Of a DNA stretch of 39,717 nucleotides, positions 2,150 to 28,480 are shown piece after piece. The stretch lies in NCBI GenBank assembly GCA_005793375.1, contig SXSK01000271.1, positions 1-39,717 on the forward strand. The letters are read 5' to 3'. The DNA comes from Verrucomicrobiales bacterium (GTDB lineage: Bacteria; Verrucomicrobiota; Verrucomicrobiia; Limisphaerales; UBA9464). The translations under genes and the position numbers were made by a program. Every line of letters begins with the position of its first letter. Position 1 is the stretch's first letter. Under the pieces are notes generated by a model. That model saw only the letters and a list, made by a program, of their open reading frames with translations, did no database searches and was not told where the DNA came from.

Positions 2150-3127
2150 TTGCCTATGAATCGAATTTTAAACCATGTCTGTTGGGCCGTGCTGATTGTG
2201 ATGTATGGCGGATGGATTCGAGCGGCTGAATCCAGCAAGGGTTCTGGGGCTGCCGGCATGGTTTTAGATGACGTGTTCGCCAGCCCAATCTCCGCTCTGG
2301 AACTGGAGGCTCTGCGGACGATTGGTTCGGTCGGTTTGTCCTATTCGGTGGCCACTGATGACGATTTGGACGAAATTGTCGGCGAAATTTCGACTTATTC
2401 CTTTCGACGCGATGCGACCCAAATCGTGCGACTGGGATGCTGGGGAGACGGTACATTGCACGCGCACCTGATGGATCGATGGATGATGTTGCAGCCGGTG
2501 GAAGTGCTGGAATGGTTCGATGGGCTTCGACCTGAGGAGAAAACCTCGACATTGATAAAGCAGGTGGGTATCGCAGGGATCCATGTGAATTCCCGATGGG
2601 CTGTGGAATGGTTGGTTTCAAGACATCAAGCCGGAGAGACAACCAACGAAGACTGGTTGACCCAGTTGTATGAAGCGACACGGTTCGAGCCTAGGCGGGT
2701 CGCCGAGTTGGCCCTCGAATTGCAGGAAGGCGCTGAACGCGACGCTTTGGTAGAACATGCAGTCCAGGAGTGGGCGGGCAGAGAACCGAGTGCTGTGGAC
2801 ATTTGGGTCCGTGGGTTCGAAGAGAGCCCTTTGAAGCAGCGGTTGATCGCTGCGCAAGTGTTGGGTATGGCGGCCCTGGACATACTTCAAGCAACCACGA
2901 TGGCGGCGACACGATTGAATCCGGGCTCTTTACAAAACCGTGTGGTCATCTCACTGGTGCAGCGTTGGGCTCAGAACGCCCCAATGGCAGCGGGTGCCTG
3001 GGTTTTGGCATTTGAAAATTCGACGCTCCGAAAACTCGCAGTGGGTCAGCTCTTGGAGCAGTGGAAGCTGATGGATCCAGACTCTTCGGCTCGGTGGGCT
3101 CTTATCCATACACCTCTAAGCCACTGA
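2150..3127 (+). CDS. Hypothetical secreted alpha-helical protein
   Basis: 325 aa ORF directly downstream of the previous gene; hydrophobic N-terminal signal-like segment; Ala/Trp-rich helical repeats (e.g. VISLVQRWAQNAPMAAGAWVLAF). Confidence 0.65.
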   Translation: MPMNRILNHVCWAVLIVMYGGWIRAAESSKGSGAAGMVLDDVFASPISALELEALRTIGSVGLSYSVATDDDLDEIVGEISTYSFRRDATQIVRLGCWGDGTLHAHLMDRWMMLQPVEVLEWFDGLRPEEKTSTLIKQVGIAGIHVNSRWAVEWLVSRHQAGETTNEDWLTQLYEATRFEPRRVAELALELQEGAERDALVEHAVQEWAGREPSAVDIWVRGFEESPLKQRLIAAQVLGMAALDILQATTMAATRLNPGSLQNRVVISLVQRWAQNAPMAAGAWVLAFENSTLRKLAVGQLLEQWKLMDPDSSARWALIHTPLSH

Positions 3128-3148
3128 CTGTGCCCCGAGTCTGTGGCG

Positions 3149-4858: not shown

Positions 4859-5064
4859 AGGAAGAGGACACTAGTCTGCTCTTATGGGCTTGGGCAATCT
4901 CGGACGCTGGACCAATGATGCGGTAGCCAGGTATTTCTACGGACAAGCCTGAATAACGTGGCAACTCTATTTTGTTGGGGATGGACAAGAAATGGCTAGC
5001 GTGCGACAAAAGGGAGGAAGCGCGAGGCAAGATTTGGGTAGAAGTTAAAAACAGTTAGCAAATC

Positions 5065-5985
5065 TTGGCAAAACAAGTTCAACAAACAACGACTAGATCT
5101 GGTATGAACAACCCCGATTCCATGCTGCAGACTTTGGTAAAATCACCGCTGTATCAGGCGTACGAGAAGGCGTTTGGCGATGCGACGGGATTGCCGTTGA
5201 CGTTGCGTAGTCCGCACGCCTGGGAAGTGGCGCACGCTCGAAACCACCACAAGAACCCCTTCTGTACGTTTATGGCCAAGCAGAGCCGGACCTGTGCGGC
5301 GTGCCTTCGTGTCCAGCAAGAATTGTCTGAGAACGCGCAGACCGAGCCCTACACGACCACCTGTTTTGCAGGACTATGTGACAGTGCCGTACCGGTGAGG
5401 TTGGGCGACCAGATCCTGGGTTTTTTGCAGACGGGGCAAGTCATGTTGCGTAAGCCCTCTGAAGCGCAGTTCAATCGGTTGGAAGAGCAACTGAACGAAT
5501 GGAAGATTCCGCACGCGACGGAAGAATTGCGGGCGGCGTGGTTGCAGTCGCCAGTAATGAACAAGAAAGGGTATGATGCCGCTCTGGGTTTAGTGAAGGT
5601 TTTTGCTGAGCATTTGTCGATAGCTAGCAACCAGTTGGCCATCCGGGCGGAGAACACGGAACCGCCGGCGATCAAACGGGCTCGAGTGTTCATCCAGGAG
5701 CATCTTGGGGAGCGGTTGTCGCTCAGCATGGTAGCCGGAGCCCTGCATATGAGCACATTTTACTTCTGCAAGATGTTCCGAAAGAGCACGGGTCTCAATT
5801 TTACTGACTTTGTGGCTCGGGAACGGATCGAGCGGGCCAAGAATCTGCTGCTGAACCAAAATCTTCGCGTGAGTGAGATTGCTTACGAGATTGGATTCCA
5901 ATCATTGACTCACTTCAATCGGATCTTTCGGCGCATTGTCGGGCGTACGCCCACGGAGTTCCGCGGCCGCAATGTCACCGGTTGA
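5065..5985 (+). CDS. PocR ligand-binding domain / AraC-family transcriptional regulator
   Basis: PocR-like N-terminus with Cys pattern (NPFCTFMAKQSRTCAACLRVQQ...TTTCFAGLCDSAVPVRLGDQILGFLQTGQV). AraC HTH C-terminus (RLSLSMVAGALHMSTFYFCKMFRKSTGLNFTDFVARERIERAKNLL...IAYEIGFQSLTHFNRIFRRIVGRTPTEFR). TTG at 5065 or ATG at 5104 as start. Confidence 0.88.
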   Translation: MAKQVQQTTTRSGMNNPDSMLQTLVKSPLYQAYEKAFGDATGLPLTLRSPHAWEVAHARNHHKNPFCTFMAKQSRTCAACLRVQQELSENAQTEPYTTTCFAGLCDSAVPVRLGDQILGFLQTGQVMLRKPSEAQFNRLEEQLNEWKIPHATEELRAAWLQSPVMNKKGYDAALGLVKVFAEHLSIASNQLAIRAENTEPPAIKRARVFIQEHLGERLSLSMVAGALHMSTFYFCKMFRKSTGLNFTDFVARERIERAKNLLLNQNLRVSEIAYEIGFQSLTHFNRIFRRIVGRTPTEFRGRNVTG

Positions 5986-6114
5986 CTGGTTCCGGACGTC
6001 GGGGTTTGAGTTGGCAATGAAACTCCGGATAGTGATGTCCGGAATTGCCATGTTGGAATCCTTGGATCATCCTCTTGGCGCACCACAATGGCGCGTTAAC
6101 TCATCACACTCAAT

Positions 6115-6750
6115 ATGGCTCTGAGACTTGGGGATATTGCCCCTGATTTTACGGCGGACACCACGGAAGGTTTGATTCGATTTCACGAATGGCTGGGGAA
6201 TTCGTGGGGAGTCCTATTCTCACATCCCGCTGACTACACTCCGGTTTGCACGACAGAACTCGGTACTTTGGCAAAGCTCAAGGCCGAGTTTGCCGGGCGA
6301 AACGTCCAGGTGGCAGCAATCAGTGTGGATCCCATCGAAGCGCATCGAGGCTGGGTGGGTGACATCAATGAGACTCAGTGCACGAGCGTCAATTTTCCCA
6401 TCATCGCCGATCCTGAGCGCAAGGTGGCCATGTTGTACGACATGATCCATCCCAACGCCGACGATAAGTTCACGGTGCGGTCGGTTTTCATCATTGGTCC
6501 CGACAAGAAGGTCAAACTGATGATTACCTACCCGGCATCTACAGGTCGGAACTTTGTTGAGTTGTTACGCGTATTGGATTCTCTCCAATTGACGGCGAAG
6601 TATCGTGTGGCCACTCCAGCCGACTGGAAAGACGGCGATGATTGTATCATTACGCCTGCTGTCAAAGACGACGAAGCCGTCACGCTGTTTCCGAAGGGGA
6701 TTCGAAAGGTTAAGCCGTACCTGCGGTACACACCGCAGCCGAATCGCTAA
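6115..6750 (+). CDS. Peroxiredoxin, AhpC/TSA family, 1-Cys Prx6-like
   Basis: 211 aa; LGDIAPDFTADTTEG, peroxidatic motif HPADYTPVCTTELG, Prx6-like C-terminus (ATPADWKDGDDCIITPAVKDDEA). Confidence 0.93.
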   Translation: MALRLGDIAPDFTADTTEGLIRFHEWLGNSWGVLFSHPADYTPVCTTELGTLAKLKAEFAGRNVQVAAISVDPIEAHRGWVGDINETQCTSVNFPIIADPERKVAMLYDMIHPNADDKFTVRSVFIIGPDKKVKLMITYPASTGRNFVELLRVLDSLQLTAKYRVATPADWKDGDDCIITPAVKDDEAVTLFPKGIRKVKPYLRYTPQPNR

Positions 6751-6751
6751 A

Positions 6752-6770
6752 AGCGCGGGCAGACCGCGCT
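6752..6770. terminator. Putative hairpin terminator between convergent genes (peroxiredoxin and aldehyde dehydrogenase)
   Basis: AGCGCGG-GCAGA-CCGCGCT, 7-bp perfect stem 2 nt after the peroxiredoxin stop; no strong U-tract. Confidence 0.4.
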
Positions 6771-6909
6771 CGATTTGACCTGCAAACGCCAGTTGCCCGC
6801 CACCGATCTAACGCAAGATCTTGGCGCCGAAGTCGTTTGCTTGGTTGGCACACCACGGGCAATGCTGGGGAAACAGCGACATCGAACTGCCGCGCTCTCA
6901 CCAGGGTGC

Positions 6910-8352
6910 TCACCAAGCCCGCTCGATACTCCGGCGCTGCCAAAGGAATTCGAACATGTTGCCCTCGTGGGGTTGATCCCACGAAATTTTCATCGTGGAT
7001 ATCGGTCCGATATTGAGTCGGTCGATATCGGAGAAGGCTTCCAGTTGTTCGATGAATCCCTGGTCTTTGGTGATGGCGGAGCAGGCAAGGGTGTAGCCGA
7101 TTTTAGAGAGCATCTCGCTTTGGGGGCAGGTGACGACGCTCGCAAACGGGCAAAGATACTCTCGATTGGCCAATGGATGGGCGAAGGAATCGCAACGCAC
7201 GATGGTCGGCCGCATGTAGGTTCCACCCTCGAACACTACCTTGCGTGGTCCTTGGCGATATTTTGCCGTGACATCTTCCACGCCGGGTACCTTAAGTCCG
7301 TCCTCAATCTGGGTGTCGATGAAATCAGCCATCTTGGGATTGGCGAACCCTGAAAGCCGGGCGGATTCGTCGTCGGGTCTTGTGGGAACGAACGGCCCGA
7401 GCTTTTGAGCCAGCGCGTCGGCGATTTCCGCCGCATACTTCGAGACTACCACGGCACTGGCGTTGATGCATGATCGCCCACCGTTGTCACTGATGGCACC
7501 AGCGATCGTATCGATGTACTCAGGCCAGTTCTCGATGCAATCATCGCCGATTAGAAACTTACTCCACCCTGGCCCGTGAACCTCGATGGCCGGGTTGTTG
7601 GCGTACTGATCGGTGGTGCTCTTGTCACCAAAGATCAACGCGCGGCCGCAGCTGTTTAAGATGGTGGCGGCGCCGTCGTGATCGGTCGGGTAAAAGCCAA
7701 ACGCTTCGGCCGGAACTCCAGCGGTGATAAAGGCTTGGATCAATCGGAAGGGAGTCCAAGGCTCTTCTTTGCCGGGCTTAATGATCACCGGGGTCTTGAG
7801 AGCGACGGCCGGGAGCCAGAGTGAGTTGACCGCCGGGGAATTGCTCGGCATGACCAAGCCCAAGGCCTGGCAGGTGGGAAAGAAGCTTAGTTTGGTGCCA
7901 AATTGCTCGCCATAGCCTCGGTCGATAATGGTGAAATCGAGACCCCGAGACAATCCATTCAGTATTTCAGCGAGATGAGTGAGCGCGTAGTGCAGTTTAG
8001 CCATGTTCCGCCGAACCATGACGTGCGGCAGACCTGAAGTGAGGCTGAGGGTTTCGACGTACTGTTGTGGCGACTGAGAGTGGCCACGGTCCCCGAGCGG
8101 TAGCGTACCCTCCAGGAAAAGGGCGCCGGCTTTGGCGGAGAGGTCCACCAATTCGGCGACCGTAAACTTCTTGAGCGCTGCTCGTGCGGCTCCCAGCCTG
8201 CTGAGGTCCCGCTTCAGAATGCCACTATTCACCTGGGAAACCAGGGCTTTGACTTCGCCTGATCGGTGGTCTTTGACCTCAATCTTGTCGAGGGAGTCGT
8301 AGGCGCGGCCGAGACGCAGCGTCGGGAGATGCGGGATATCGCTCATGCTCAA
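6910..8352 (-). CDS. Aldehyde dehydrogenase family protein
   Basis: 480 aa; ALDH-fold motifs LGLVMPSNSPAVNSLWLPAVALKTPVIIKPGKEEPWTPF and catalytic-Cys region DNGGRSCINASAVVVSK. Confidence 0.8.
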   Translation of the reverse strand: MSMSDIPHLPTLRLGRAYDSLDKIEVKDHRSGEVKALVSQVNSGILKRDLSRLGAARAALKKFTVAELVDLSAKAGALFLEGTLPLGDRGHSQSPQQYVETLSLTSGLPHVMVRRNMAKLHYALTHLAEILNGLSRGLDFTIIDRGYGEQFGTKLSFFPTCQALGLVMPSNSPAVNSLWLPAVALKTPVIIKPGKEEPWTPFRLIQAFITAGVPAEAFGFYPTDHDGAATILNSCGRALIFGDKSTTDQYANNPAIEVHGPGWSKFLIGDDCIENWPEYIDTIAGAISDNGGRSCINASAVVVSKYAAEIADALAQKLGPFVPTRPDDESARLSGFANPKMADFIDTQIEDGLKVPGVEDVTAKYRQGPRKVVFEGGTYMRPTIVRCDSFAHPLANREYLCPFASVVTCPQSEMLSKIGYTLACSAITKDQGFIEQLEAFSDIDRLNIGPISTMKISWDQPHEGNMFEFLWQRRSIERAW

Positions 8353-8428
8353 ATTATCTGCGCTAAAATGTTACGTCTGCGTAGTGATGGCAACGGAAAG
8401 ATTCGGATTCGTTCTGTCCATTGAGTCG

Positions 8429-10399
8429 CTATCGAAACCGCCAGCGTTCGTCAAAGAATCCGGCTGCGATGATTCCCTGGGGTGCCTGCCTCGGGTTGAT
8501 TTCACGGACTGCCCAATCAGGGAGCCAGGGTGTTTGGCGAGCATTGGTGCCTTTCCAAGCAGCGAATGTGTGGCCGCTGTTTAAAACAATGTAACGTTTG
8601 GGGTTGAGTGGATTCGGGTAAATCATCATTGGAACATGTGTGGACGCTGGGATTTCGATTCGTCCAAGCACGACACTCCGCCGATTCCATTGGAGGGGAA
8701 GTTTGCGCAAGATTTGTTTTAAAACGCGATTATTGCCTGGGTCACCCCAAAGGATGAGATGGTTCTCGGCGACATCCGAGGCTGTGAGGTCTTGGTCGTT
8801 TCGAAGCCGCAGGTCGGCGCGGAATTGTCCGCGCCAATCTTCGATAAATTGTTGGAGCGCCGCTTCGGACCAGGTTCCGACGGCGGGATTCCAAGCCGTT
8901 CCAGTGGGGCGCACGACGAGGAATCGATCCATGAACGCATCATCCATCGGCCCTTGCAGACCGGGTTGTTTACGGAGCGATGGGAGGGAGGAACCCACTC
9001 GCCAGCGGCCGTTCTTCAAGGTGAATTGAACCGTACCTGGGGATTGGCGACGGTGGTTTTCTTGGACATCGAGTGTCTGAGAGCCGATCTGAATGTGCCA
9101 GGTGCCGAGCCCGAGTTCTGGTGGATCCATCAGTCTGAACGCCGTGATGTTGGAAAGACTGAGGCGAACCTGGGAGGGCGGATCCAAATCCGCATGAACT
9201 CGGGCAGGTTTCCAGTGGTTCTCCAGAGCCAGGATCTGGAACCAAGCCAAGCGCGCTCCCTCTGGGTATCTTAATGTCGGCGTGCTGAAGTTGAGACGCC
9301 TCGGATAAGCATCCTTTGGCGTCGCCATTAGAGTGTCAAACGACTCGGCGAGACGGGCCTTGGCGCTGGGTTCAAAGCGATGTTCCACGCCGGGACCGAG
9401 GATGTGATGCAGGGAGATACCCTCCGTTTGCATGGCCGCTGCCATGGTATCGGCGGCAAGTCGTTGCCGATCCAGTTCACCGCTATACGCAATGACATCG
9501 AGGTGCTGGAAATTGGCGGCGTAACCCGGGACATCATAAAGCTGCCATAAGGTTTGTTCCCAGGGAGCAATCTGGATCGGTTGCTTCAGGATGCCAGTGT
9601 AACCTGCGGTATCGACAAAACCGGCACCGGGATTTGCGGCGCGCCAAAAGCCTGGGTGATGTGCGGCGAGATGCCAAGTGCCGGCGCCCCCCATGGAAAA
9701 CCCGCGGATGGATCGTCGGCGTGGATCGGTTCCGTAGGCCGTTTCGGCATGCGCTACTGCCTCAAAGACATCGGTCTCACCTGCGAATTTGTAGGCATTG
9801 CAGTATCGGCCGTAAGGATGGAGCACGATGCTATTAGCGGGGGAGAATTCGCCTCGGGAGCGGAGGCGTTCGCCGAGAAACTTGAGCTCCGTCCGTTTCT
9901 CGTCGCGACCGGCGAGCCAGACGTCGAGGCGGAGCGATGGGGACGTCTTAGACGAATTCGTTGGAATAACGACACCGTAAGGTTGGATGGAGTCATCGAT
10001 CCTGGAACGGAAACCGCGGATGACGAGTCCTGTTTGCTGTGTCCACGGGGCGATGCCGGACCGCAACTGAGCGGCGCGTTCGTGGCCGAGGTTCAATAAT
10101 TGATCCGCGAGGGCGAATTGATTGGTGTGATGAAATTCATTATAGGTGAGTGCCCAATGGACGGCTTTATGGAGTATCGCCACATCTGGCAAGAGTTCTT
10201 GGCAGAGGATCTCTGGGCGGGTGCGGAGTTCGGTCAATTCCGCTTCGAGTCTCGCCGAACGATGCTCGAGATCCGAACGGATGAATGGCGGCACCTCGAT
10301 TCCGCGAGGTGGGACCAGACCCGCGCTGAAGAGTGAGTGGAATGATGGCGGAGCCCAGAAGGTCAGCAATGCCAAGCCGTGTATCCAGAGCCGGTTCAT
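8429..10399 (-). CDS. Secreted alpha/beta hydrolase (prolyl-oligopeptidase / esterase-like)
   Basis: 656 aa; nucleophile-elbow RRRSIRGFSMGGAGTWHLAAHHPGFW; N-terminal hydrophobic segment; start overlaps the upstream GNAT stop by ATGA. Confidence 0.72.
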   Translation of the reverse strand: MNRLWIHGLALLTFWAPPSFHSLFSAGLVPPRGIEVPPFIRSDLEHRSARLEAELTELRTRPEILCQELLPDVAILHKAVHWALTYNEFHHTNQFALADQLLNLGHERAAQLRSGIAPWTQQTGLVIRGFRSRIDDSIQPYGVVIPTNSSKTSPSLRLDVWLAGRDEKRTELKFLGERLRSRGEFSPANSIVLHPYGRYCNAYKFAGETDVFEAVAHAETAYGTDPRRRSIRGFSMGGAGTWHLAAHHPGFWRAANPGAGFVDTAGYTGILKQPIQIAPWEQTLWQLYDVPGYAANFQHLDVIAYSGELDRQRLAADTMAAAMQTEGISLHHILGPGVEHRFEPSAKARLAESFDTLMATPKDAYPRRLNFSTPTLRYPEGARLAWFQILALENHWKPARVHADLDPPSQVRLSLSNITAFRLMDPPELGLGTWHIQIGSQTLDVQENHRRQSPGTVQFTLKNGRWRVGSSLPSLRKQPGLQGPMDDAFMDRFLVVRPTGTAWNPAVGTWSEAALQQFIEDWRGQFRADLRLRNDQDLTASDVAENHLILWGDPGNNRVLKQILRKLPLQWNRRSVVLGRIEIPASTHVPMMIYPNPLNPKRYIVLNSGHTFAAWKGTNARQTPWLPDWAVREINPRQAPQGIIAAGFFDERWRFR

Positions 10400-10863
10400 C
10401 TGAGGACAAAGTCCCGCTCCAACACTTCGTAACCGGCGGGCTGGAGGCCCAACTTGAGGTATGTTCGTCGGGCTGGAGCGTTGTGATGATCCATGTACAG
10501 GCGCAATCCGCAGACTTGTTCAGCATTCTTTGCGAGAGTTTCCACATGCCGATAGAGCGCCCGAAAAACACCTTGTCGTCGGACCTCGGGTAGCACATAG
10601 ACACTCTGAATCCACCAAAACATTCCATTTCGCCAATCGCTCCACTCATAGGTCACCATGAGTTGGCCGACAATGGATCCGGAGTTTTCGGCGACGAAAT
10701 AGGATCCTTTGCTGGAATCTGAAAGCACCGCATGCACACCAGGAATAATTCGTCCTGGGTCAAGTTCCCGGCCCTCGGTTTCGCGTGCGAGAGCCCGGTT
10801 GTACTCCGCGATGGTCGCGGTATCGGCTTCGGTGGCCTTGCGAATATTGGATGACGTCGACAT
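10396..10863 (-). CDS. GNAT family N-acetyltransferase
   Basis: 155 aa; GSIVGQLMVTYEWSDWRNGMFWWIQSVYVLPEVRRQGVFRALYRHVETLAK...NAPARRTYLKLGLQPAGYEVLE. Confidence 0.88.
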   Translation of the reverse strand: MSTSSNIRKATEADTATIAEYNRALARETEGRELDPGRIIPGVHAVLSDSSKGSYFVAENSGSIVGQLMVTYEWSDWRNGMFWWIQSVYVLPEVRRQGVFRALYRHVETLAKNAEQVCGLRLYMDHHNAPARRTYLKLGLQPAGYEVLERDFVLR

Positions 10864-10945
10864 GAGTTATGATGGGGCGACATCGACGAACTCAACCGGT
10901 CGCAGATGGACCCGTGATGTAGTGACGGCACTCCGATGGCTCTGG

Positions 10946-12229
10946 TTACCGATTCCCGATGCACCAGAGTGTCTTTTCGGTGCGGATGAACACCTTGCCC
11001 TCTGAAACAGCCATGCTGGCTTGAGCGCGTTCGCCATTTAGTGAATTGCGAGAAAGAATCCGGAATTCAGGCCCCTCTGCGACGACGGTGGTTACGCCGT
11101 CCTCCGCCAGGAAGTAGATCCGGCCATTGGCGTAGAGCGGTGATGTGCAAAAATTGCCTCCCACACGTTCGGAGTAAAGGATTTCCCCAGTCGTCGCCCG
11201 ATAACAATGGGCGATGCCTCCGTCAGTGATGGTGTGGAGATGCGGTTTGAGGTGAAGAAGAGCGGGTTGAGTGGGGCAACCTTTGCGTTGTTCCCAGGCT
11301 ACGTGGGAAGCACTGACATCGCCTTCGCCGCCGAGTTTGAAGGCACGCAATGTGGTCTTTTCAAATCCAGAAGATGTGAACAATAATCCGTCTCCAAGGG
11401 CGGGATTGGGTGTGACGCCTTCGCCTTGGTTGTAGGCGGTCCATATCCGCGCGCCGGTCTTCAAGTCAAAGCCTTGAGCGGCGTCGCCGGCGCAGCTGAT
11501 GACCTGGGTTTTGCCCTGTTCCGTCACGAACAACGGGGTGAGGTGTGAGACTCGTGACTTGCCCCGAGGGGTGCGCCAGAGCTCGCGGCCTGTTTTGGCA
11601 TCGACACCCACGACGAAGGCTTTATCCCAAGGAATCTGCCAGCCGAGTTTCTCATCGTTCGACACGTTGGGGAAATTACCTGCGGCAGTCACCCGATTGC
11701 TGCCGTCATAGGCCATGACAAGGATGCCATCGCGCACGACCGGTGAGGAACTAAGCCCATGCCGGCTGTAAAATTCGACGGAGCGATGGGTCCAAACCAC
11801 GCTGCCCTTGAAATCCACGGCAACCATGCTGCCATCTCCAAAAACGCTGTAGATTCGTTCACCATCGGTCGTTGGCGTTGGCGTTGCGTAGGAATTTTTA
11901 CCCTCTTTGCGCCGGGTCACCTGATCGAAAACATGGGTATCCCAGATGACACTGCCTGATTTGGCATCGAGGCAGAGGACATGGCAGGAGGCACCGGCGG
12001 CGCGAGTGCCCGTGAGAAATACGCGATTGCCCCAAACAATCGGGGAAGACCAGCCATCTACGCCGGTTTGCACCTTCCAAACCAAGTTGGAGTCGGAACT
12101 CCATTGCCAGGGGACGTGAATCTCTGAAGAATGGCCTTGTCCGGAAGGGCCGCGATATTGCGGCCAGTTTTCGGCGGAACAGCAGGACACAGCGAGGAGC
12201 GTTAGGAACGACCAAAGTACAGGCTTCAT
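10946..12229 (-). CDS. PQQ-like beta-propeller repeat protein, secreted
   Basis: ORF opens at 12382; a signal-peptide-like start MKPVLWSFLTLLAVSCCSAENWPQYRGPSGQG lies at 12229. PQQ-like blades (VWKVQTGVDGWSSPIVWGNRVFLTG; FVVGVDAKTGRELWRTPRG). Confidence 0.85.
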   Translation of the reverse strand: MKPVLWSFLTLLAVSCCSAENWPQYRGPSGQGHSSEIHVPWQWSSDSNLVWKVQTGVDGWSSPIVWGNRVFLTGTRAAGASCHVLCLDAKSGSVIWDTHVFDQVTRRKEGKNSYATPTPTTDGERIYSVFGDGSMVAVDFKGSVVWTHRSVEFYSRHGLSSSPVVRDGILVMAYDGSNRVTAAGNFPNVSNDEKLGWQIPWDKAFVVGVDAKTGRELWRTPRGKSRVSHLTPLFVTEQGKTQVISCAGDAAQGFDLKTGARIWTAYNQGEGVTPNPALGDGLLFTSSGFEKTTLRAFKLGGEGDVSASHVAWEQRKGCPTQPALLHLKPHLHTITDGGIAHCYRATTGEILYSERVGGNFCTSPLYANGRIYFLAEDGVTTVVAEGPEFRILSRNSLNGERAQASMAVSEGKVFIRTEKTLWCIGNR

Positions 12230-12420
12230 AAGCGAACTTTGACCCGAGAACCTCAACCTGCGCCAGCACGATTCAATCTGGAAACCCAGCGTCGGCTGAC
12301 ACGGGTCCCAGGCTCGATACATTATTTGTGGAGGCGACGGATCCGAGTTCTGTCGCTTCCAAGGGAATTCCAACAATCCCATAATCCACTATCCAGTGGT
12401 CATGGTTCTCGCGAGACTAG

Positions 12421-14001
12421 GTGCCGCGCATGGTCGCTGATTTCGATTTGGTGGTGGTTGGCTCTGGGTTCGCTGGGTCTTTGATCTCAATGATTGCCTG
12501 CCGATTGGGGTATCGTGTTGCCTTGGTGGAACGGGGCAGGCATCCACGGTTTGCCATCGGAGAATCGACCACTCCATTGGCTAACCTGATTCTGGAGGAA
12601 CTTTCGCTGACATACGACTTGCCGGCTTTAATACCGCTGACCCAATGGGGTTCCTGGCAACGAGTTTATCCGGGTTTGGGATGCGGACTGAAGCGCGGGT
12701 TCAGCTTTTTTCATCATCGCGCTGGGTCGCGGCGGACATTCGGTGCCAACCGCGAACACCAGCTAATGGTTGCCGCTAGCCCCCGGGATGAAATTGCGGA
12801 CACACACTGGTATCGGGCAGATCTGGATCACTTTTTGTCACTGGAAGCCCAACGATCGGGTGCCGAGTACCTGGAGGCTTGGCAACCGACTGGATTGGAG
12901 TTAGGGCCGACCGGTGGCGTACTGGTTGGCGAGTCGCATGGACACGTGCAGCGACTGAGTTTTCGACGATTGATTGATGCCAGTGGCGGGGGAGTGGGCG
13001 GCAGTTGTGTGACACGACTGCTGCAACTAGGCGTGGATCCTCTGGAGGGATTTCCTGTCACACGGACGCTCTATGCCCATTTCCGAAATATCCCGCGTTG
13101 GTCCGAGTTGCATCCGTCGTCCGAACCCACCCCCTATCCCGTGGATGATTCGGCGATGCATCATGTGTTTGATGAGGGTTGGTTTTGGGTCCTGCGTTTT
13201 GCCAACGGCCTCACGAGTGCGGGTGTGGTGATGACTGATGCTGCGCCTCTGGCTCCGGGGCTCAAGCCGACCCACAGCTCCTGGACGGAACTACTGACTC
13301 GATTCCCTCAGATATCCGAACACCTGGGACCGGGCATTCCTGAGGGCGCCTTTCATCAGCAATCGGTAGTGGGGTTTCGAGGGCGACACGCCGTTGCAGG
13401 TCCCTGCGTGTTGTTGCCGTCTGCGGTTGGGTTTGTGGATCCGATGTTTTCAACGGGGTTTCCGCTGACGCTTTTGGGCGTGGAACGACTGGCAATGGCA
13501 ATCTCTGGAGGGGGCCTTGGCAGCGAGTTCGAGGGAACTCTGGGGTGTTACGAACGTCAAACCGTCTCGGAATTGAACCTCACCGCAAAGTTCATGGGAG
13601 CGGCCTATCGGTTGTTTCCAGATTTTGATTCGTTCCGATCCCTCTCCATGCTGTATTTCACTGCGGCGATTTACTCCGAAACCGTGCGACGCCTAGGCAA
13701 GCCTGAGTTGGCTTCAGGGTTTCTGCTCGCGGATCACCCCGTATTTGGGAGAGCATTGGCACACTGTCTTGAAATCGCCGGAACCGTTCCACCACGAGTG
13801 TTTGCAGACCAAGTGAGGCGAGCCATAGAACCGTTCGAACTAGCAGGGCTGATGAACCCGGAGGCACAGCATTGGTATCGGGCTTCGGCTCAACCGATGC
13901 TGGAAGGCGCGGCCAAGGTGGGTGTATCTCCTGATGAGATGCAGTCGATGTTGGAGCGTGTCGGATTCCATCAGGCGCATGGGGTGAATCCCCCATTGTA
14001 G
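12421..14001 (+). CDS. FAD-dependent oxidoreductase, tryptophan-halogenase-like / geranylgeranyl-reductase-like
   Basis: GTG start; Rossmann motif DFDLVVVGSGFAGSLISMIACRLGYRVALVERGRHPRFAIGESTTPL; DEGWFWVLRFANGLTSAGVV; VGFVDPMFSTGFPLTLLGVERL. Confidence 0.82.
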   Translation: MPRMVADFDLVVVGSGFAGSLISMIACRLGYRVALVERGRHPRFAIGESTTPLANLILEELSLTYDLPALIPLTQWGSWQRVYPGLGCGLKRGFSFFHHRAGSRRTFGANREHQLMVAASPRDEIADTHWYRADLDHFLSLEAQRSGAEYLEAWQPTGLELGPTGGVLVGESHGHVQRLSFRRLIDASGGGVGGSCVTRLLQLGVDPLEGFPVTRTLYAHFRNIPRWSELHPSSEPTPYPVDDSAMHHVFDEGWFWVLRFANGLTSAGVVMTDAAPLAPGLKPTHSSWTELLTRFPQISEHLGPGIPEGAFHQQSVVGFRGRHAVAGPCVLLPSAVGFVDPMFSTGFPLTLLGVERLAMAISGGGLGSEFEGTLGCYERQTVSELNLTAKFMGAAYRLFPDFDSFRSLSMLYFTAAIYSETVRRLGKPELASGFLLADHPVFGRALAHCLEIAGTVPPRVFADQVRRAIEPFELAGLMNPEAQHWYRASAQPMLEGAAKVGVSPDEMQSMLERVGFHQAHGVNPPL

Positions 14002-20477: not shown

Positions 20478-21227
20478 TCAATGGATTCCCAGGCCTTCGC
20501 TGTTCAATACGAGGGTTTCGTAGCGAGAGACACTGGACGATTGACGTCGCAAGAGCGCAGCCTCAATGGTCTTGCCGGCGAGATTTGCCTTCCATCCGGA
20601 CTGACGTTCCGATTCGGCTGGAGTCGTCGGCGGAAAACTCATTCCTTCCTTGAGACACCACCAAGTCTGGAGCAGGAGGTCGGCAATGGCCTCCAGCGAA
20701 GTCCGGGATTCGATCTCCCGCCTCAACCATTCCTGGGCGGCAGACTCGGCCTCGGTTTCCGGCGCGACGATGCAGACGCCGCCGGACTGCGTCACAAAAC
20801 TGCCATCAAAACGAAGGCGCACCAGATGATCGTGAGCCGGTGTGTCTCCTAGTTCCGCGAACACGAACTCACCCAACACGGGGGCGGTGAAGAGTTGTTC
20901 GAAGTTCTGTTTCACTTGGGCACTCAAGCCAAAACCGACGAGTCGACGGAGACTGACGTCTTGGGCGGCCCGTGTAAACGCTTCGATGTGAGCTGCATCA
21001 ATGGCGGTTTGACGAATACGTTCGATATCGGCTGGATGGCCGAGGCCTGCCATAGCGTGGCGATCGTGGAGTTCGAAGACTTTGCTGGAACCGGAACCGA
21101 CACCGAGGAGGAGGATGCCGGCCGGCATGCTCACGGCGAAAGCGGGGCTGCCACCCTTGAGTTGTTCCCGGACGTAGTCGCGCCGGTTCGCGATGGCTTC
21201 CAACCAGCGATAGGGTTCGTCGGTCAT
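20478..21227 (-). CDS. prcA: 20S proteasome alpha subunit
   Basis: 249 aa; PYRWLEAIANRRDYVREQLKGGSPAFAVSMPAGILLLGVGSGSSKVFELHDRHAMAGLGHPADIERIRQTAIDAAHIEAF resembles actinobacterial PrcA; last gene of the mpa-dop-pup-prcB-prcA order. Confidence 0.88.
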   Translation of the reverse strand: MTDEPYRWLEAIANRRDYVREQLKGGSPAFAVSMPAGILLLGVGSGSSKVFELHDRHAMAGLGHPADIERIRQTAIDAAHIEAFTRAAQDVSLRRLVGFGLSAQVKQNFEQLFTAPVLGEFVFAELGDTPAHDHLVRLRFDGSFVTQSGGVCIVAPETEAESAAQEWLRREIESRTSLEAIADLLLQTWWCLKEGMSFPPTTPAESERQSGWKANLAGKTIEAALLRRQSSSVSRYETLVLNSEGLGIH

Positions 21228-21278
21228 GGCTAAAGTGCTGGGGCGATTGTTAAAAGGGTGAGTGAGTCAGACTTGGTT

Positions 21279-22073
21279 TCAACCAGCGTTGGCATTGGGA
21301 TCGGTGGCCAATGCGGCGGCTTGGTCCGAGTCGGAGACCGTTTGGATGCCGCTGCTAGTCAGGATCTTGAGTGTGGCAAATTGGTTGCTGCTCGGATCCA
21401 CGCCACCGGTGGCGGAATCCAGTTCCGATGCCGTCATGAGCAACCGCAGTGCAAAACGCGTGGCTTCAAGTCGATTCATTTCTGAAGGACGTGGTGTTCC
21501 GTGGCGTTCGTGAAAGGCGAATATGCTTCGAATGCTGGCGCTGCCGCTGCCGCTGGCAGCGTGACCGACGGCCTGAAACTGAGCGCCCAAGGGATCGTAG
21601 AAATAGATGTGCGGCGCGGGAGATTTTTCACTGAAATCGACGCCAGCGAACAGCGGGACGACAATGCCAACACCCTGCATGGTCATGGGGAGATTATCGC
21701 GCAGTAGTCGGGCGAGGGCGCGGACACGGGCGGCGAGGCTGAGCGGTTGCAGTTGGCTCCGGCGATAATACTCAAACGATGTTTGAAGTACCCGGGCCAT
21801 TTCGAATGCCGTTGCGGGCACCCCAGCGATGGCGAGCAACGACGTGGCATCGATCTCCAAAATCTTTTCGATTTTGTCGGTGACGATCAAATTCCCCGCG
21901 GTGGCGCGTCGATCGCCCGCCATCAAGACGCCTTCGGCGAAATGAAAGGCGAACACCGTTGTCGCCTGGGTTTGGTTCGGCATTGAGCCGATGGGGTGCT
22001 GGGCGAAGAGGCGTGTTTCATGCTGTGCCAGGAGCGACAAAAAGTCTCCGGCGATGGCGGTGGTTTGGGTCAT
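21279..22073 (-). CDS. prcB: 20S proteasome beta subunit (Ntn hydrolase) with propeptide
   Basis: 264 aa; ATTVFAFHFAEGVLMAGDRRATAGNLIVTDKIEKILEIDATSLLAIAGVPATAFEMARVLQ; predicted catalytic Thr38 after a 37-aa propeptide (7 aa if Met31 is the start). Confidence 0.93.
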   Translation of the reverse strand: MTQTTAIAGDFLSLLAQHETRLFAQHPIGSMPNQTQATTVFAFHFAEGVLMAGDRRATAGNLIVTDKIEKILEIDATSLLAIAGVPATAFEMARVLQTSFEYYRRSQLQPLSLAARVRALARLLRDNLPMTMQGVGIVVPLFAGVDFSEKSPAPHIYFYDPLGAQFQAVGHAASGSGSASIRSIFAFHERHGTPRPSEMNRLEATRFALRLLMTASELDSATGGVDPSSNQFATLKILTSSGIQTVSDSDQAAALATDPNANAG

Positions 22074-22127
22074 GCTTGGACGGAAATGTGGACAGATCGG
22101 AGAGCCCAGGTCTGGGAGCCAACCCGC

Positions 22128-22310
22128 CTATTGGCCGGTGCGTTGACGGTACCGTTTGGCTTGGTCTGGATCGACCTTGCGCATGCGTTTGAGCAGTTCC
22201 TGCACGTTCGGTTTGTCCAATTTGGGTGAGGCTGGACCGTCTCCACCCCCACCCCCAGGCGCGGGAACGATCGAGCGCGGTTTTTGAAATTGTTCCGGCA
22301 TGAGTGTCAT
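22128..22310 (-). CDS. pup: Pup / UBact-type protein modifier ending in Gly-Gln
   Basis: 60 aa: MTLMPEQFQKPRSIVPAPGGGGGDGPASPKLDKPNVQELLKRMRKVDPDQAKRYRQRTGQ; disordered Gly-rich N-terminus, helical C-half, C-terminal GQ; ATGA overlap with the dop stop and placed just before prcB. Confidence 0.9.
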   Translation of the reverse strand: MTLMPEQFQKPRSIVPAPGGGGGDGPASPKLDKPNVQELLKRMRKVDPDQAKRYRQRTGQ

Positions 22311-23818
22311 AAGTTTAGGAGTGTTCTTAATTCATCAGGACTGGAAGCCTGTTCGATGCACGCACGATAACGGAGAACCTCCGATTCTGCGAACAAATCC
22401 AACAACGAGATCTTCCAGACGCCGGTCTGTGATTGCAAGGTGACATGATCCCATTGAGCGGAGAGTACGGCGCTTGGAAATTTGCGAATGCAGCCACCAC
22501 GGATGGCTGCACGCGTGGTCTGGGGTGCTTCATTCATGGCTCGATGGATGTCGGATTCATTGGGGACACCTTGAAACGCTCCGCTTTGTTCCAATCCAGA
22601 GAACAGGCCTTCAGTGGGATCTAATAAATGGTAGGCCAAATCCAGGCTTCGCACCCAGGGGTCGTTTTCGGGGACGGTTTCTGTCTCCATAAACTCCCGG
22701 ATTAACGCATGCTTGGCAACCCAATCCAATTGATCGCGACAGCTCAACGGATCCTGGGCCAAGTCGTTAAGTATCGCCGCCCAGTCGTGGACGAGTTGCT
22801 GTCGGTTTGGTTGATGGAGGTCGCAATAATCCCGGACAGCTTTCAGGTAGGCGTGTTGAACCTCGAAGGAGTCTGAGATCAGACGGCTGTCTGGAGAGCC
22901 ACCGCGAACCCAGCGTGGATCGCGCGACAGTTCTTGGAGTAATGAGAGTGGGTGCTCGAGCAGGGGCAACGTTCGGCTCAGATCGGGATTCGCGACTAAC
23001 GCTTCCAGAACCAACGCCGTGGTGCCGACTTTAAGGCGGGTGGCGAACGGGCTCATGTTGGCGTCACCAAGGATCACATGGAAGCGGCGCCAGCGGTTTG
23101 GGTTGGCGTGCGGTTCATCACGGGTGTTGATGATGGGCCGCCGCTGCATGGTGTCGACGCTCTGAAGTTCCGTGAAGAAATCCGCCCGCTGCGATATTTG
23201 AAAGGCGCTGTTGAGGAATCGATCCTCCTCCTCGGTGGCGAATTTGCCGGCCCCCGTGAACATCTGGCGTGTGACGAGGAATGCCTGGATACCGCGCACC
23301 AAAGTCTCCCAGGGCAGAGAACGGGGCAGCAGATAATTCTCGTGGCACCCATAGCTGTGGCCGCGAAAATCGGTGTTGTTCTTGTAGAGGCGGACTTTTC
23401 CGGGACCGGTTTCACTCAAATGTTCGGCGCATGCAGCGGCCATCCGTTCGCCAGCGCGATCCTGAACCACCAACTCGTCGGCGGTCGCGCACTCCGGTGT
23501 GCAATACTCCGGATGGGCATGATCGTTGTAGAATCTGGCACCGTTCCCGAGAATGAGATCACTCTTGATCTCGCTAAACGAAAGCGGACGTGACGCGTCC
23601 TGCTCAAAATAATTGGCCTCGTCCGTGTCCTGGCGGAGTTCCGAGACTCGAAACCCGCGGGCGTCGATGTGGGGATCTTCGCAGGAATAGTCCCATCGCA
23701 TGCGCACCCCAGTCTCGCGGGCGGCACGGACCAATGCGATGGATTCCGCCACGACATCGATGGACTCTTCCGTGTCTCGAGTGATGCCAAATTCCGTCTC
23801 GAGCCCGAACAAGATCAT
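22307..23818 (-). CDS. dop: Pup deamidase/depupylase Dop
   Basis: Likely ATG at 23818 (ORF opens at 23947): MILFGLETEFGI, MRWDYSCEDPHIDARGF, NGARFYNDHAHPEYCTPEC, RLYKNNTDFRGHSYGCHENYLLPR, FQISQRADFF, IINTRDEPHANPNRWRRFHVILGDANMS. Confidence 0.93.
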   Translation of the reverse strand: MILFGLETEFGITRDTEESIDVVAESIALVRAARETGVRMRWDYSCEDPHIDARGFRVSELRQDTDEANYFEQDASRPLSFSEIKSDLILGNGARFYNDHAHPEYCTPECATADELVVQDRAGERMAAACAEHLSETGPGKVRLYKNNTDFRGHSYGCHENYLLPRSLPWETLVRGIQAFLVTRQMFTGAGKFATEEEDRFLNSAFQISQRADFFTELQSVDTMQRRPIINTRDEPHANPNRWRRFHVILGDANMSPFATRLKVGTTALVLEALVANPDLSRTLPLLEHPLSLLQELSRDPRWVRGGSPDSRLISDSFEVQHAYLKAVRDYCDLHQPNRQQLVHDWAAILNDLAQDPLSCRDQLDWVAKHALIREFMETETVPENDPWVRSLDLAYHLLDPTEGLFSGLEQSGAFQGVPNESDIHRAMNEAPQTTRAAIRGGCIRKFPSAVLSAQWDHVTLQSQTGVWKISLLDLFAESEVLRYRACIEQASSPDELRTLLNL

Positions 23819-23888
23819 TGGGGTCTCGGGGTTCCAGGAGCTTGAGCAACGTTCCATCCAGGTTGAGGCGACTGGGTTGAGACCGGAT

Positions 23889-25601
23889 CTAAATGATGCC
23901 GGATTTTTCGGTTTTTCTCGGTCGGATCTGACCGAGGCGGACGACATTATCGGGATCGAAATCTGTGAGCTTCAGCCAATCTTCAGTCAGGTCGGTGGAT
24001 GGGAACAAATCGTTCTCCTGATGCTCCAGCTTGAGGGATTCGAGCAAGTCTTCACGGGTCAGAATCCCACCTGATTTCTCGCGGATGGCACGTTTGATGG
24101 CGAGTCCTTTGGCACGTTCTACGACGGCAGCGATGATGGCGCCGCTGGCGAGATCTCCGCGGTACAGGACATCCCGTTTGCCACTGCGGTAGCCGACCTC
24201 CAGAAATTCGTTCTCAGGAATTCGGGCGAAGTGGGCCTCGGTCACCGCTTGGACGAGGAGTTCGCGGGGTTCGGCGAGCGGAAGAGACGTGTGAAGGTAA
24301 ATTTCGTAAATGCGTTGTGCGCCGGCTTTGTCGGGGCGGCGTACCCGGATTTTGCGATCGATACGCCCGGGACGCAGGATTGCGGGGTCGATGAGATCGG
24401 CGCGGTTGGATGCGAGAATAACGACAACATTAGACAAAGGTTCGATGCCATCCATTTCCGTGCAGAACATGGGTACCAGGGTGGATAAGATGCTCGGGAC
24501 GCGCCCACCGCGACGGGTGCCTAGAATGCTTTCGGCTTCGTCGATGAAGAGGAAAGCGAGATGTCCGGTGGCGGCGCGTTCTCGGCATTGGGCAAAGAGA
24601 TCCCGAACCTGGCGTTCGCTTTCGCCGACCCACATGTTAAGGACCTCTGGGCCCTTGACGTGCAGAAAGAACTCCTGCCGGTCCTCGCCGGTTTGTTGGA
24701 GGATTTGTTGGCGGAGGTTGTAGGCGGTGGCTTTGCCAAGCAGCGTTTTGCCACAGCCGGGGGGGCCGTGGAGCAAAAATCCTTTGGGCACTGAATGACC
24801 AAACTTCCGAAACAAGTCCTGGTGGAGAAACGGCAGTTCGATGGCATCGCGAATCGCCTGAACCGCGTCGTCTTGTCCACCGATGGCAGTCCATGGGAGC
24901 GTGGAAACGCTTTCGATGGATCGATCGGTACGCCGGCCTTCAGCCAGGATTTCCAGGGCAACCCGGCTGTTGGAATCCAAACGGACCTCGAGTCCTGATC
25001 GGAGCTTGTCCTTGGTCAAGAGGAGCGATCGGATGACGATACTCCCGGACTGACCACTCTCGTTGCCCAATCGTAGACGTCCGTCGGGCAGAACTTGGTC
25101 AATCCGTGAAATGGGCCCGCTCAGGTCGTAGTCCAAGCAACGCACCACGGCGAATGCCTCATTGCACAAGACACGTTGGCCGGTCTCCAGCGAGAAGACG
25201 GGAATGGTCGGATCGACGCGGCAAACATAGTCGGTGCCGCCGATGCAAACCTGGGCTTTGTCCCGATCCACCGCTGTGATAAAAGTGCCGACGCGAAAGG
25301 CAGGCGACCGCAACTTCTCCACAATGCCGTCCATTTTTTCGAGCGCTTGGCGTGCGGCATCCTGCATGTTTTCCAGTTGCTCGACCCGTTCCCTTAGATA
25401 GACCAGATCCAGGAGGGCGGGGTGGCGTTGCGGGAGTTTTCCGGCGATAAGATCCAGTATCTGAAGAGTGCTAAGGCGATCCAAATCTTCGGAGGAGAGG
25501 AGGTCGCGTAAACTGCTGGTCTGGCCAGGGTCGGCCTGGGAAGTCGCGGGTTCGAAGAATGGTTGCCCGGCGTTTTGGGGCTTCTTTTTTGGCTCACCCA
25601 T
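23889..25601 (-). CDS. mpa: Proteasome-associated AAA+ ATPase (Mpa/ARC)
   Basis: 570 aa; N-terminal coiled coil (LVYLRERVEQLENMQDAARQALEKMDGIVEKL), OB domains, AAA+ core LPWTAIGGQDDAVQAIRDAIELPFLHQDLFRKFGHSVPKGFLLHGPPGCGKTLLGKATAYNL, LAFLFIDEAESILGTRRGG, RPGRIDRKIRV. Confidence 0.93.
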   Translation of the reverse strand: MGEPKKKPQNAGQPFFEPATSQADPGQTSSLRDLLSSEDLDRLSTLQILDLIAGKLPQRHPALLDLVYLRERVEQLENMQDAARQALEKMDGIVEKLRSPAFRVGTFITAVDRDKAQVCIGGTDYVCRVDPTIPVFSLETGQRVLCNEAFAVVRCLDYDLSGPISRIDQVLPDGRLRLGNESGQSGSIVIRSLLLTKDKLRSGLEVRLDSNSRVALEILAEGRRTDRSIESVSTLPWTAIGGQDDAVQAIRDAIELPFLHQDLFRKFGHSVPKGFLLHGPPGCGKTLLGKATAYNLRQQILQQTGEDRQEFFLHVKGPEVLNMWVGESERQVRDLFAQCRERAATGHLAFLFIDEAESILGTRRGGRVPSILSTLVPMFCTEMDGIEPLSNVVVILASNRADLIDPAILRPGRIDRKIRVRRPDKAGAQRIYEIYLHTSLPLAEPRELLVQAVTEAHFARIPENEFLEVGYRSGKRDVLYRGDLASGAIIAAVVERAKGLAIKRAIREKSGGILTREDLLESLKLEHQENDLFPSTDLTEDWLKLTDFDPDNVVRLGQIRPRKTEKSGII

Positions 25602-25695: not shown

Positions 25696-26739
25696 TCAAC
25701 GTCGCCGAATCAGGCTCAGTCCTTTGAGCAAATCCAGCGCACGCCCCAGCACCGGATCCCGAACCGCTCGCGATTCTGTCGATGCAGACGGCTTCTCGGC
25801 CTGCAAGGCGGTGTCATTAGTGTCCGAGCGTTTCCCGGCTTTCAGAGCGCGAACCAGCTCTGCTTCATTCACTCGACGACGAACCGAGACCGCCGACACG
25901 AGCTTGTTCGTGGCTGACAAGGAATTTGTGGCGGCGGCGACTGCAGTAAACGGATCATCGAGCCAAGCCTTGTCGTGCTCGACTCGCGTGACCACTTCGA
26001 TGTCGGGGGCCAATCCTTGCTGTGGCAGCACTTCACCAGCCCCGGTTTTCACCGGCGACACGGGTAATTGAAGGCGCTCCCCAGTGGAAAGTGGGAACTC
26101 CTTGAGCCTCCCCGATTTTCCTGCGGTGCGCCTGCCGATGACCAATCCGGAAGCGGTCTCACGCAGCACCGCGGCGAGCGCTTCGGCGGCACCAGAGGTT
26201 TCTTGGTTGACCAAGACCGCAATTGGCAGGGACCACGCGTGATTGGTGGTGGATGTCGATGTGATCAAACCATCCCCCCAATCCAGGAGGGGTTGACCAG
26301 GTGGAGCAAACAAACCCGCGATCTTTGCGGCTATAGCATAATCGGTGCCCTGGGCAAAACGAAGGTCCAGAACCAACCCACGCGCCGAGCTCATGATGTT
26401 GGTATCAGCAAGGTATTCAGCAAGAGCCTGGTCCGTTGAACCACTCAGATGGCCCAGGCGCACATAAGGATAGTGGCGATCGTACGTTGCCCGGTGCACG
26501 ATGCCGGTTTCGGCAAGTTCCTTCCGGATTTCGTTGGCTGCGATAACAGAGCCCCCAAATTGTTTTAGCAGGGCTTCCGTTGCCTGATGCTCGAATCCGG
26601 AATTTCCAAGTCCGACGAGGTTCGTTCGGAGAATCTCAAAGACTTCGAGAAAGGGAGGAAGTGCGGCCTGAACGACGGTTAGGCTCTGACTTGAAAGCCA
26701 CATCAGGGAGGCGAGTAGAATGGGACAAAGGCGTGTCAT
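25696..26739 (-). CDS. Secreted S41 (C-terminal processing peptidase)-like protein
   Basis: 347 aa; signal-like N-terminus; ARGLVLDLRFAQGTDYAIAAKIAGLF, IAVLVNQETSGAAEALAAVLRETASGLVIGRRTAGKSGRLKEFPLSTGERLQLPVSPVKTGAGEVLPQQGLAPDIEV. Confidence 0.75.
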   Translation of the reverse strand: MTRLCPILLASLMWLSSQSLTVVQAALPPFLEVFEILRTNLVGLGNSGFEHQATEALLKQFGGSVIAANEIRKELAETGIVHRATYDRHYPYVRLGHLSGSTDQALAEYLADTNIMSSARGLVLDLRFAQGTDYAIAAKIAGLFAPPGQPLLDWGDGLITSTSTTNHAWSLPIAVLVNQETSGAAEALAAVLRETASGLVIGRRTAGKSGRLKEFPLSTGERLQLPVSPVKTGAGEVLPQQGLAPDIEVVTRVEHDKAWLDDPFTAVAAATNSLSATNKLVSAVSVRRRVNEAELVRALKAGKRSDTNDTALQAEKPSASTESRAVRDPVLGRALDLLKGLSLIRRR

Positions 26740-26801
26740 CTTGACCAGGTCGATTCAGGGGTTGAGAACGGACTTTAGGCGCAATGAGTGGATGCCAAGT
26801 T

Positions 26802-28100
26802 TCAAGAAACTGCCAGCGCTTTCGACGCGATGTCTTTTCTATAGTGCATTCCGGCAAAGTAGAGTCGATTGACCGCCCCATAGGCCCGGGCCCGGGCAAT
26901 GGCGATCGAGTTTCCAACGGCAGTCACCCCTAACACCCGCCCACCATTCGTGACAATGTCCTCACCGGAACTGGCTGTGCCGGCATGGAAAACGCGGACG
27001 TCCGGTATGGATGCGACATCTCCAAGTCCAAAGATCACCCGGCCTTTGGGTGAATTGCCCGGGTAGCCTTCAGAGGCGAGGACCACACAAACGCTGGCCC
27101 GCGAAGACCACTTCAGTTCATGTGGTGCCAGTTCCCCTTGAGCGCTGGCGATCAACAACTCCACGAGATCGTTTTCAAGTCGAGTGAGGTAGACTTGAGT
27201 TTCCGGGTCACCAAAACGGGCATTAAATTCCAGGACTTTGGGGCCATTTTGGGTCAGCATGACTCCCGGGTAGAGAATGCCGCGGAAATCGATGCCTTCT
27301 TCCCTGCAGCCGCGGAGCCACGGCTGGAGGATCTGATCTCCGACGCTCGCCAATTCGGCAGCGTCAAGGACTGGGGCAGGGGAATAGGTGCCCATCCCGC
27401 CGGTGTTCAGACCTTGGTCACCTTCGAGGGCGCGCTTGTGGTCCTGGGCGGTTGGAAAGAGTTTGGCAGTGCGACCATCGCAAAGGGCGTGCAGGGAAAT
27501 CTCAATGCCCTCGAGTAATTCCTGGATGACCACGCGATCTCCGGCGGCGCCGAAGGAACGGCGCACCAGGATGTCCTCTACCGCGGTTTCCGCTTCGGCG
27601 ACGCTGTGAGTTAGCAGTACCCCTTTGCCCAAGGCCAACCCGTCGGCCTTGACCGCGCATCGTCCGTCGAGTGATGCCGCGAAACGTCGCGCTGCATCGA
27701 CGTCGGTGAAACTCCCGCTTTTCGCCGTCGGGATGCCATGCTTCTCCATGAAATTTTGGGAAAAGGCTTTGGACGCCTCGAATTGGGCCGCGCGCTGGTT
27801 GGGGCCCCAAATGAGGAGACCCGCCGCCTGGAACCGATCCGTGATGCCCGCGGCGAGGGGATTGTCCGGGCCGACCACGGTCAAATCCGGCTTCTTGTCG
27901 GCGGCGAATACCAGCAGGGCGTCGATGTTGTCCGCAGCGATCGGGAGGTTGGTCACGGTCTGACCGTTCTTGGAAAGCCGCTCCAGTTGGGTGCCGGCGT
28001 TCCCTGGAGCGCACCACATTTGAGTGACGTGGGGCGATTGGGCTAATTTCCAAACCAGGGCGTGTTCACGTCCGCCAGAACCAATCACAAGCAACTTCAT
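26802..28100 (-). CDS. purD: Phosphoribosylamine--glycine ligase
   Basis: Start at ATG 28100 (ORF opens at 28199): MKLLVIGSGGREHALVWKLAQSPHVTQMWCAPGNAGT; VVGPDNPLAAGI; AVKADGLALGKGVLL; NTGGMGTYSPAP; RFGDPETQVYLTRLENDLVELL. Confidence 0.97.
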   Translation of the reverse strand: MKLLVIGSGGREHALVWKLAQSPHVTQMWCAPGNAGTQLERLSKNGQTVTNLPIAADNIDALLVFAADKKPDLTVVGPDNPLAAGITDRFQAAGLLIWGPNQRAAQFEASKAFSQNFMEKHGIPTAKSGSFTDVDAARRFAASLDGRCAVKADGLALGKGVLLTHSVAEAETAVEDILVRRSFGAAGDRVVIQELLEGIEISLHALCDGRTAKLFPTAQDHKRALEGDQGLNTGGMGTYSPAPVLDAAELASVGDQILQPWLRGCREEGIDFRGILYPGVMLTQNGPKVLEFNARFGDPETQVYLTRLENDLVELLIASAQGELAPHELKWSSRASVCVVLASEGYPGNSPKGRVIFGLGDVASIPDVRVFHAGTASSGEDIVTNGGRVLGVTAVGNSIAIARARAYGAVNRLYFAGMHYRKDIASKALAVS

Positions 28101-28168
28101 GTCACGCGGAGTGAACCAAGTCCGCTTTCCTAACTGAAAGCTCTTTTTGGAAGCGTTTTTGCGATTGG

Positions 28169-28480
28169 TTGAGCTACTTAAACGAAGCGACGTGTCCATT
28201 CAGTGGTGCGTTGTGGGTGAATGACGGCGAGTTTTACCTCATCGAACGGTTCCCAAAGTTCGGAGTTTTGGTGCACTCTGACGTTGAGCCGCTTCGAATG
28301 TACGAATTTCAGTCCACCACCAATTTGGCGGCGGCAACTGGAGTTGCCGAAGCGCCAACGAATGCGTGGCGAGTACTTTATCGCATGGATGCTTCCCCGT
28401 TCTCCCAGCACTACATTCTACCCAATTATTTTACGAACACGACCGCGCAATTGTTCTATCGATTGAAAGTATTTCTGTGA
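28169..28480 (+). pseudogene. Possible remnant of a secreted-protein C-terminus
   Basis: 103 aa ORF with TTG start; the C-terminal YEFQSTTNLAAATGV...TNTTAQLFYRLKVFL resembles C-termini of large secreted verrucomicrobial proteins; no signal peptide or upstream domain. Confidence 0.35.

Follow-up and report, generated by a model that had tools for sequence, protein, structure and literature searches.

Pup-proteasome gene neighbourhoods were reported from verrucomicrobia in 2008, with Methylacidiphilum as an example of a Pup-bearing organism (Iyer, Burroughs and Aravind, PMC2588565). The report of a gram-negative bacterium with an actinomycete-like proteasome dates from 2007 (cited in PMC3511204), and the name UBact was given in 2017 by Lehmann et al. 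(cited in PMC5751360). The UBact system of gram-negatives (Lehmann et al., 2017; PF20513, NF033388) comprises a modifier ending in RQRTG[E/Q], Dop, PafA, an Mpa-type ATPase, PrcB and PrcA. Our literature search found no biochemistry of the UBact pathway. As verrucomicrobial loci have been on record since 2008 and the name UBact since 2017, the system analyzed here belongs to a known type. It has the same components and the same modifier end as the UBact system and differs from it in that PafA is detached in the present genome; otherwise it is an ordinary member, of the same kind as the verrucomicrobial neighbourhoods of PMC2588565. The Pup-proteasome system of M. tuberculosis (Mtb) shares with it the component set, the Dop-loop and active site of Dop, the Thr1 beta subunit, the length of the gate tail and the alpha lysine. 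In contrast to that system, the modifier has the UBact end RQRTGQ instead of the GGQ of Pup, PrcA is highly divergent and the ATPase lacks GQYL. The nucleophile region of PafA reads NGGRxYxDMGHxE, whereas it is NG[AS]RLYLDVGSHPE in the actinobacterial system.

The window, that is the whole stretch of 39,717 nucleotides that was analyzed, was originally predicted to carry five consecutive minus-strand genes for an Mpa/ARC-type ATPase, Dop, a Pup-like modifier, PrcB and PrcA. All five open reading frames were found in place (Table 1), and Pfam and NCBIfam profile searches, in the case of PrcA a structural model and Foldseek, agree with the families proposed. The frame of Dop is open up to position 23947, but its homologues favour an ATG at 23818 (MILFGLETEFG); this codon and position 22301 for UBact, 5 nt past the Dop stop codon, are most likely the corrected starts, as judged from the sequences. 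The genes are separated by 70, 5, 54 and 51 bases, and they therefore likely form one operon. Scans of the locus for promoters and terminators gave no signal above chance. Directly upstream of the ATPase gene lies an S41-peptidase-like gene, in whose product the usual S41 serine is apparently substituted (NQETSGAAEAL), so that it is perhaps a pseudo-protease. This gene and a PurD gene (together 25696-28199) were not found at the loci of relatives and were therefore placed outside the system.

Table 1. Positions of the features discussed in the text, with the evidence for each assignment.
Feature	Location	Strand	Evidence
Mpa/ARC-type proteasomal AAA ATPase, 570 aa	23889..25601	-	PF17758, PF16450, PF00004; TIGR03689 E=1.4e-123; PDB 5kwa Mpa E=6e-92
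Dop, UBact deamidase/deconjugase (predicted)	22307..23818	-	PF03136 E=1.5e-141; TIGR03688; PDB 4b0r Dop E=2e-94; tree
UBact modifier, 57 aa	22128..22301	-	PF20513 E=7e-22; NF033388; 14-homologue alignment
PrcB, 20S proteasome beta subunit	21279..22073	-	PF00227 E=7e-25; TIGR03690; alignment to Rhodococcus mature beta
PrcA, divergent 20S proteasome alpha subunit	20478..21227	-	TIGR03691 E=5e-13 (below cut-off); PDB 1q5q alpha E=6e-6; 48-sequence alignment; AlphaFold2/Foldseek
S41-peptidase-like gene	25696-26739	-	PF03572
PafA orthologue	G000:C117:12888-14177 (L050 7736-9184)	-	Pup_ligase match, NCBIfam, tree
Eight-gene operon, relative G011	L070 (G011:C62) 2406-12131
Eight-gene operon, relative G061	L167 (G061:C3) 3139-13508

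The modifier scores 77 bits against both UBact models, for which the cut-offs are 27.8 (Pfam) and 35 (NCBIfam). Its C-terminus, RQRTGQ, is the G[E/Q]-type end of the UBact family. An alignment of 14 homologues contains 24 invariant columns and is nearly invariant in the C-terminal half; of 79 distinct sequences, 59 end in Gln and the other 20 in Glu. That the modifier is an actinobacterial Pup, with a GG[E/Q] end, was ruled out by this tail together with the result that the Pup model PF05639 has zero matches across the genome. The neighbouring enzyme matches the NCBIfam Dop model TIGR03688 (E=9e-122) better than the PafA model TIGR03686 (2e-93), and in the tree it falls into a clade apart from PafA. 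When aligned to the Dop structure 4b0r, it retains the Dop-loop including its Trp (RMRWDY...DARGF) as well as the nucleophile and active-site stretch, NGARFYNDHAHPEY. The roles of the Dop-loop and of the residues W47, R90, Y92 and H95 have been described from Dop-Pup structures (PMC8599861).

PrcB, which matches the NCBIfam model 20S_bact_beta (TIGR03690) with E=9e-45, has a 37-residue propeptide. The mature Rhodococcus beta chain aligns from T38, and the equivalents of the catalytic residues are intact (Thr1=T38, Asp17=D54, Lys33=K70). By sequence, PrcA is the weakest of the five calls. It has zero Pfam matches and its score with the NCBIfam model 20S_bact_alpha stays below the curated cut-off, which is why its structure was modelled. 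The AlphaFold2 model, built on an alignment of 48 homologues, has a mean pLDDT of 92.4 and a pTM of 0.90. In a Foldseek search it recovers the 20S structures of Mtb and Rhodococcus with the alpha chains on top, the best E being 4.5e-13 and the TM-scores on the target reaching 0.84; the identity to the Mtb alpha subunit in structural alignments is about 16-18%. According to the model, PrcA is thus a 20S alpha subunit, predicted to fold like its mycobacterial counterpart. It starts with a short tail, MTDEPYRW, followed by helix H0, and its Lys49 is invariant in 48 out of 48 PrcA sequences; the equivalence of this residue to K52 of the Mtb alpha subunit comes from an alignment by eye.

The ATPase contains the AAA domain and both proteasomal-ATPase OB domains, matches the NCBIfam family pup_AAA, and has kept the Walker A (GPPGCGKT), Walker B (FIDE) and pore loop (WVG) motifs. 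Its C-terminus, ...EKSGII, is without the penultimate Tyr of GQYL/HbYX. Among verrucomicrobial ATPases, 42 distinct C-termini were compared and the same tyrosine was found in none; they all finish with a short hydrophobic tail whose last two residues are small or hydrophobic (e.g., GIV, AII, GVV and STI). Despite the missing motif, the assignment to the Mpa/ARC family stands on the sequence of the remainder of the protein. In Mtb, Mpa docks via its C-terminal GQYL motif with the penultimate tyrosine (PMC8755798), and the C-terminal motif of activators is thought to form a salt bridge to a conserved lysine of the alpha subunit (PMC12288473). Since all 42 ATPases lack the Tyr while the PrcA lysine is invariant in all 48 sequences, a Tyr-less mode of docking to the alpha ring is likely, but unproven. 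As a broader and more tentative proposal, towards which we lean slightly less than away from it, the UBact proteasomes of Verrucomicrobiota may use a Tyr-less hydrophobic ATPase tail, [GSA]-[IVM]-[IV], for 20S docking and gate opening. Such a mechanism would be unlike the HbYX/GQYL mechanism of archaeal, eukaryotic and actinobacterial activators, and the co-diverged alpha ring would have kept only the carboxylate-binding lysine.

The single Pup_ligase gene within the window is that of Dop, and no PafA gene was found there, an absence that the original prediction had passed over. A profile search of the contigs of the same genome recovered a second Pup_ligase gene on contig C117, with about 9 kb between it and the closer end of the contig. 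Its product scores 253 bits with the NCBIfam PafA model and 241 bits with the Dop model, both below the curated cut-offs; its best alignment is to PafA of C. glutamicum, it is without a Dop-loop and it carries the verrucomicrobial PafA signature NGGRxYxDMGH. In the tree, in which two PDB reference rows were taken from pairwise alignments and may hold small errors, it clusters with the PafA proteins of its own family, and the PafA tree mirrors the Dop tree. Judged by profile, motif and tree, the C117 enzyme is a true PafA orthologue. Its presence in the same genome rules out a system without a ligase and makes the pathway complete even though PafA is unlinked. The gene stands alone, with a radical-SAM gene on one side and a type III pantothenate kinase gene on the other, both named from reading their frames. 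An unlinked PafA recurs in relatives: in G009 and in G038 the gene is on a different contig, and in G189 a distance of about 596 kb separates two ligase-family genes of one contig. A single relocation of PafA in the common ancestor of G038 and the present genome was rejected, as the genes flanking PafA on C117 were not found at the G038 locus; the one weak match there, to CoaX, falls where the query frame overlaps PafA in antisense. According to PMC2588565, Pup and the homologues of PafA are encoded next to each other in every lineage, whereas PafA is separate here and in several relatives. The detached ligase is therefore a small departure from the described arrangement.

The locus very probably encodes a working UBact conjugation system together with a 20S proteasome, a reading in which each biochemical step is modelled on actinobacterial homologues, whereas the genes with their families, the preserved catalytic residues, the operon-like spacing, the conservation and the co-occurrence are observed. 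Dop would deamidate UBact at its C-terminal Gln, which would yield Glu, and the detached PafA would join UBact-Glu to substrate lysines in an ATP-driven reaction. A hexamer of the Mpa-type ATPase would then bind the disordered tag, use its WVG pore loops to unfold the substrate, and thread it into the 20S core of PrcA and PrcB, where the tagged substrate would meet the Thr1 protease. Dop would also strip UBact off again. The likely variation on this scheme is the Gly-Ile-Ile tail of the ATPase, hydrophobic and Tyr-less, which would still form a salt bridge to the conserved alpha lysine. Three observations speak against this reading: the ATPase has no GQYL/HbYX tyrosine, the residue by which known activators dock to the 20S core; PrcA has a low identity to the Mtb alpha subunit; and PafA of this genome is not co-transcribed with the other genes.

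How widespread the system is was surveyed in 59 genomes of relatives. UBact, Dop/PafA and the proteasome co-occur all-or-none in them: UBact was found in 16, Pup_ligase in 18 and the proteasome in 17. The two genomes with Pup_ligase and without UBact are G050, in which PrcB lies at the contig end, where UBact would be expected, and G011, which has a different operon. The order Mpa-Dop-UBact-PrcB-PrcA-PafA is seen in 27 of 106 loci, and most of the others, many of them cut by contig ends, contain contiguous parts of it; in relatives from the same order the six genes mostly stay together. In G009 the system is spread over at least three places (L053, L054 and L055), with Dop alone, UBact-PrcB and PrcA-PafA, so that the proteasome subunits are unlinked. 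In genus g9 (G010 and G030; L056 and L059) the operon order is permuted, the ATPase gene following PafA and not preceding Dop. One scan of representative genomes yielded 197 relatives of UBact; of the 80 that were kept nearly all are titled Verrucomicrobiota, several of the titles evidently being misnamed bins. A Pup-ligase-family enzyme, mostly as a Dop/PafA-like pair, occurs in about one fifth of the sampled genomes of the class. Thus, the original prediction was right in regarding the locus as a variant of the known UBact system and not a new class, but with 197 relatives and this share of the class the system is less rare than it had held. Within the window's own family its presence is patchy, and the Dop of genus g2 of this family is placed among other families with full support. 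Both observations suggest that within the phylum the system was transferred or differentially lost.

Three other explanations were weighed. The gene order resembles the actinobacterial core, as it would if the contig were an actinobacterial contaminant or the result of a recent actinobacterial transfer; the g2 Dop also speaks for transfer, within the phylum. However, the modifier is UBact and not Pup, with PF05639 unmatched in the genome, and both Dop and PafA lie in verrucomicrobial clades, away from the actinobacterial references. Moreover, the named homologous loci are almost all from Verrucomicrobiota (Limisphaerales/Pedosphaera and similar), in line with the host of Verrucomicrobia/Planctomycetes type that had been predicted. 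Because of the tree and the type of modifier an actinobacterial origin is refuted, and we give it practically no weight. A window without PafA would also fit a degraded remnant, in which, for want of an adjoining ligase, UBact could not be attached and the genes were drifting. Yet every frame is open, the catalytic residues are retained, and an unlinked PafA is also found in other complete systems, such as those of G009, G038 and G189 above. The intact PafA on C117 largely refutes this idea, which we regard as very improbable.

Somewhat less remote, but still improbable, is that UBact tagging is mainly non-degradative, serving signalling or reversible inactivation, and that the ATPase and the 20S particle act separately as the docking Tyr is missing. 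The absence of this residue from all 42 ATPase C-termini is consistent with such a function, given that GQYL mediates docking in Mtb (PMC8755798), and regulatory, non-proteasomal roles have been proposed for Plesiocystis and Rhodopirellula (Iyer et al., 2008, PMC2588565). Against it, the genes of the ATPase and of the 20S proteasome share one operon or one genome throughout, the hydrophobic dyad at the ATPase end is conserved, and the alpha lysine does not vary among the 48 PrcA sequences. We favour a working conjugation system coupled to the 20S proteasome.

A separate operon of eight genes, in the same order, was noticed in two relatives from different families of the class (Table 1). The first gene encodes a ThiF/E1-like protein, and the product of the second contains the E2-like motif HPNIRPPFIC. 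The third product matches no family, and the fourth is a ubiquitin-like protein of 90-95 aa whose C-terminus consists of AG and a short tail. Next come a JAB peptidase, in which HSHPGKF is found, and an Mpa-like ATPase. The last two genes code for Pup-ligase-family enzymes, of which the second has TPRs. The pairwise identities between the two genomes for genes 1-8 are 41, 53, 28, 49, 38, 39, 48 and 35%. In G011 neither UBact nor the 20S proteasome was matched. A JAB search at the level of the phylum (E<=1e-15) gave no matches, a result to which we attach no weight. By its gene content the operon appears to be a hybrid in which ubiquitin-type machinery is joined to machinery of the pupylation type. 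A literature search found no description of it, which is a weak negative; it is possibly undescribed and potentially newer in kind than the system of the window.

The UBact pathway has been predicted in many gram-negative bacteria. For this pathway, the locus and its relatives supply a full parts list and a clear assignment of PafA despite the detached ligase. The Tyr-less tail points to an unusual, and testable, way in which the motor may contact the proteasome, and it bears on how far gate opening by proteasomal ATPases needs the HbYX tyrosine.
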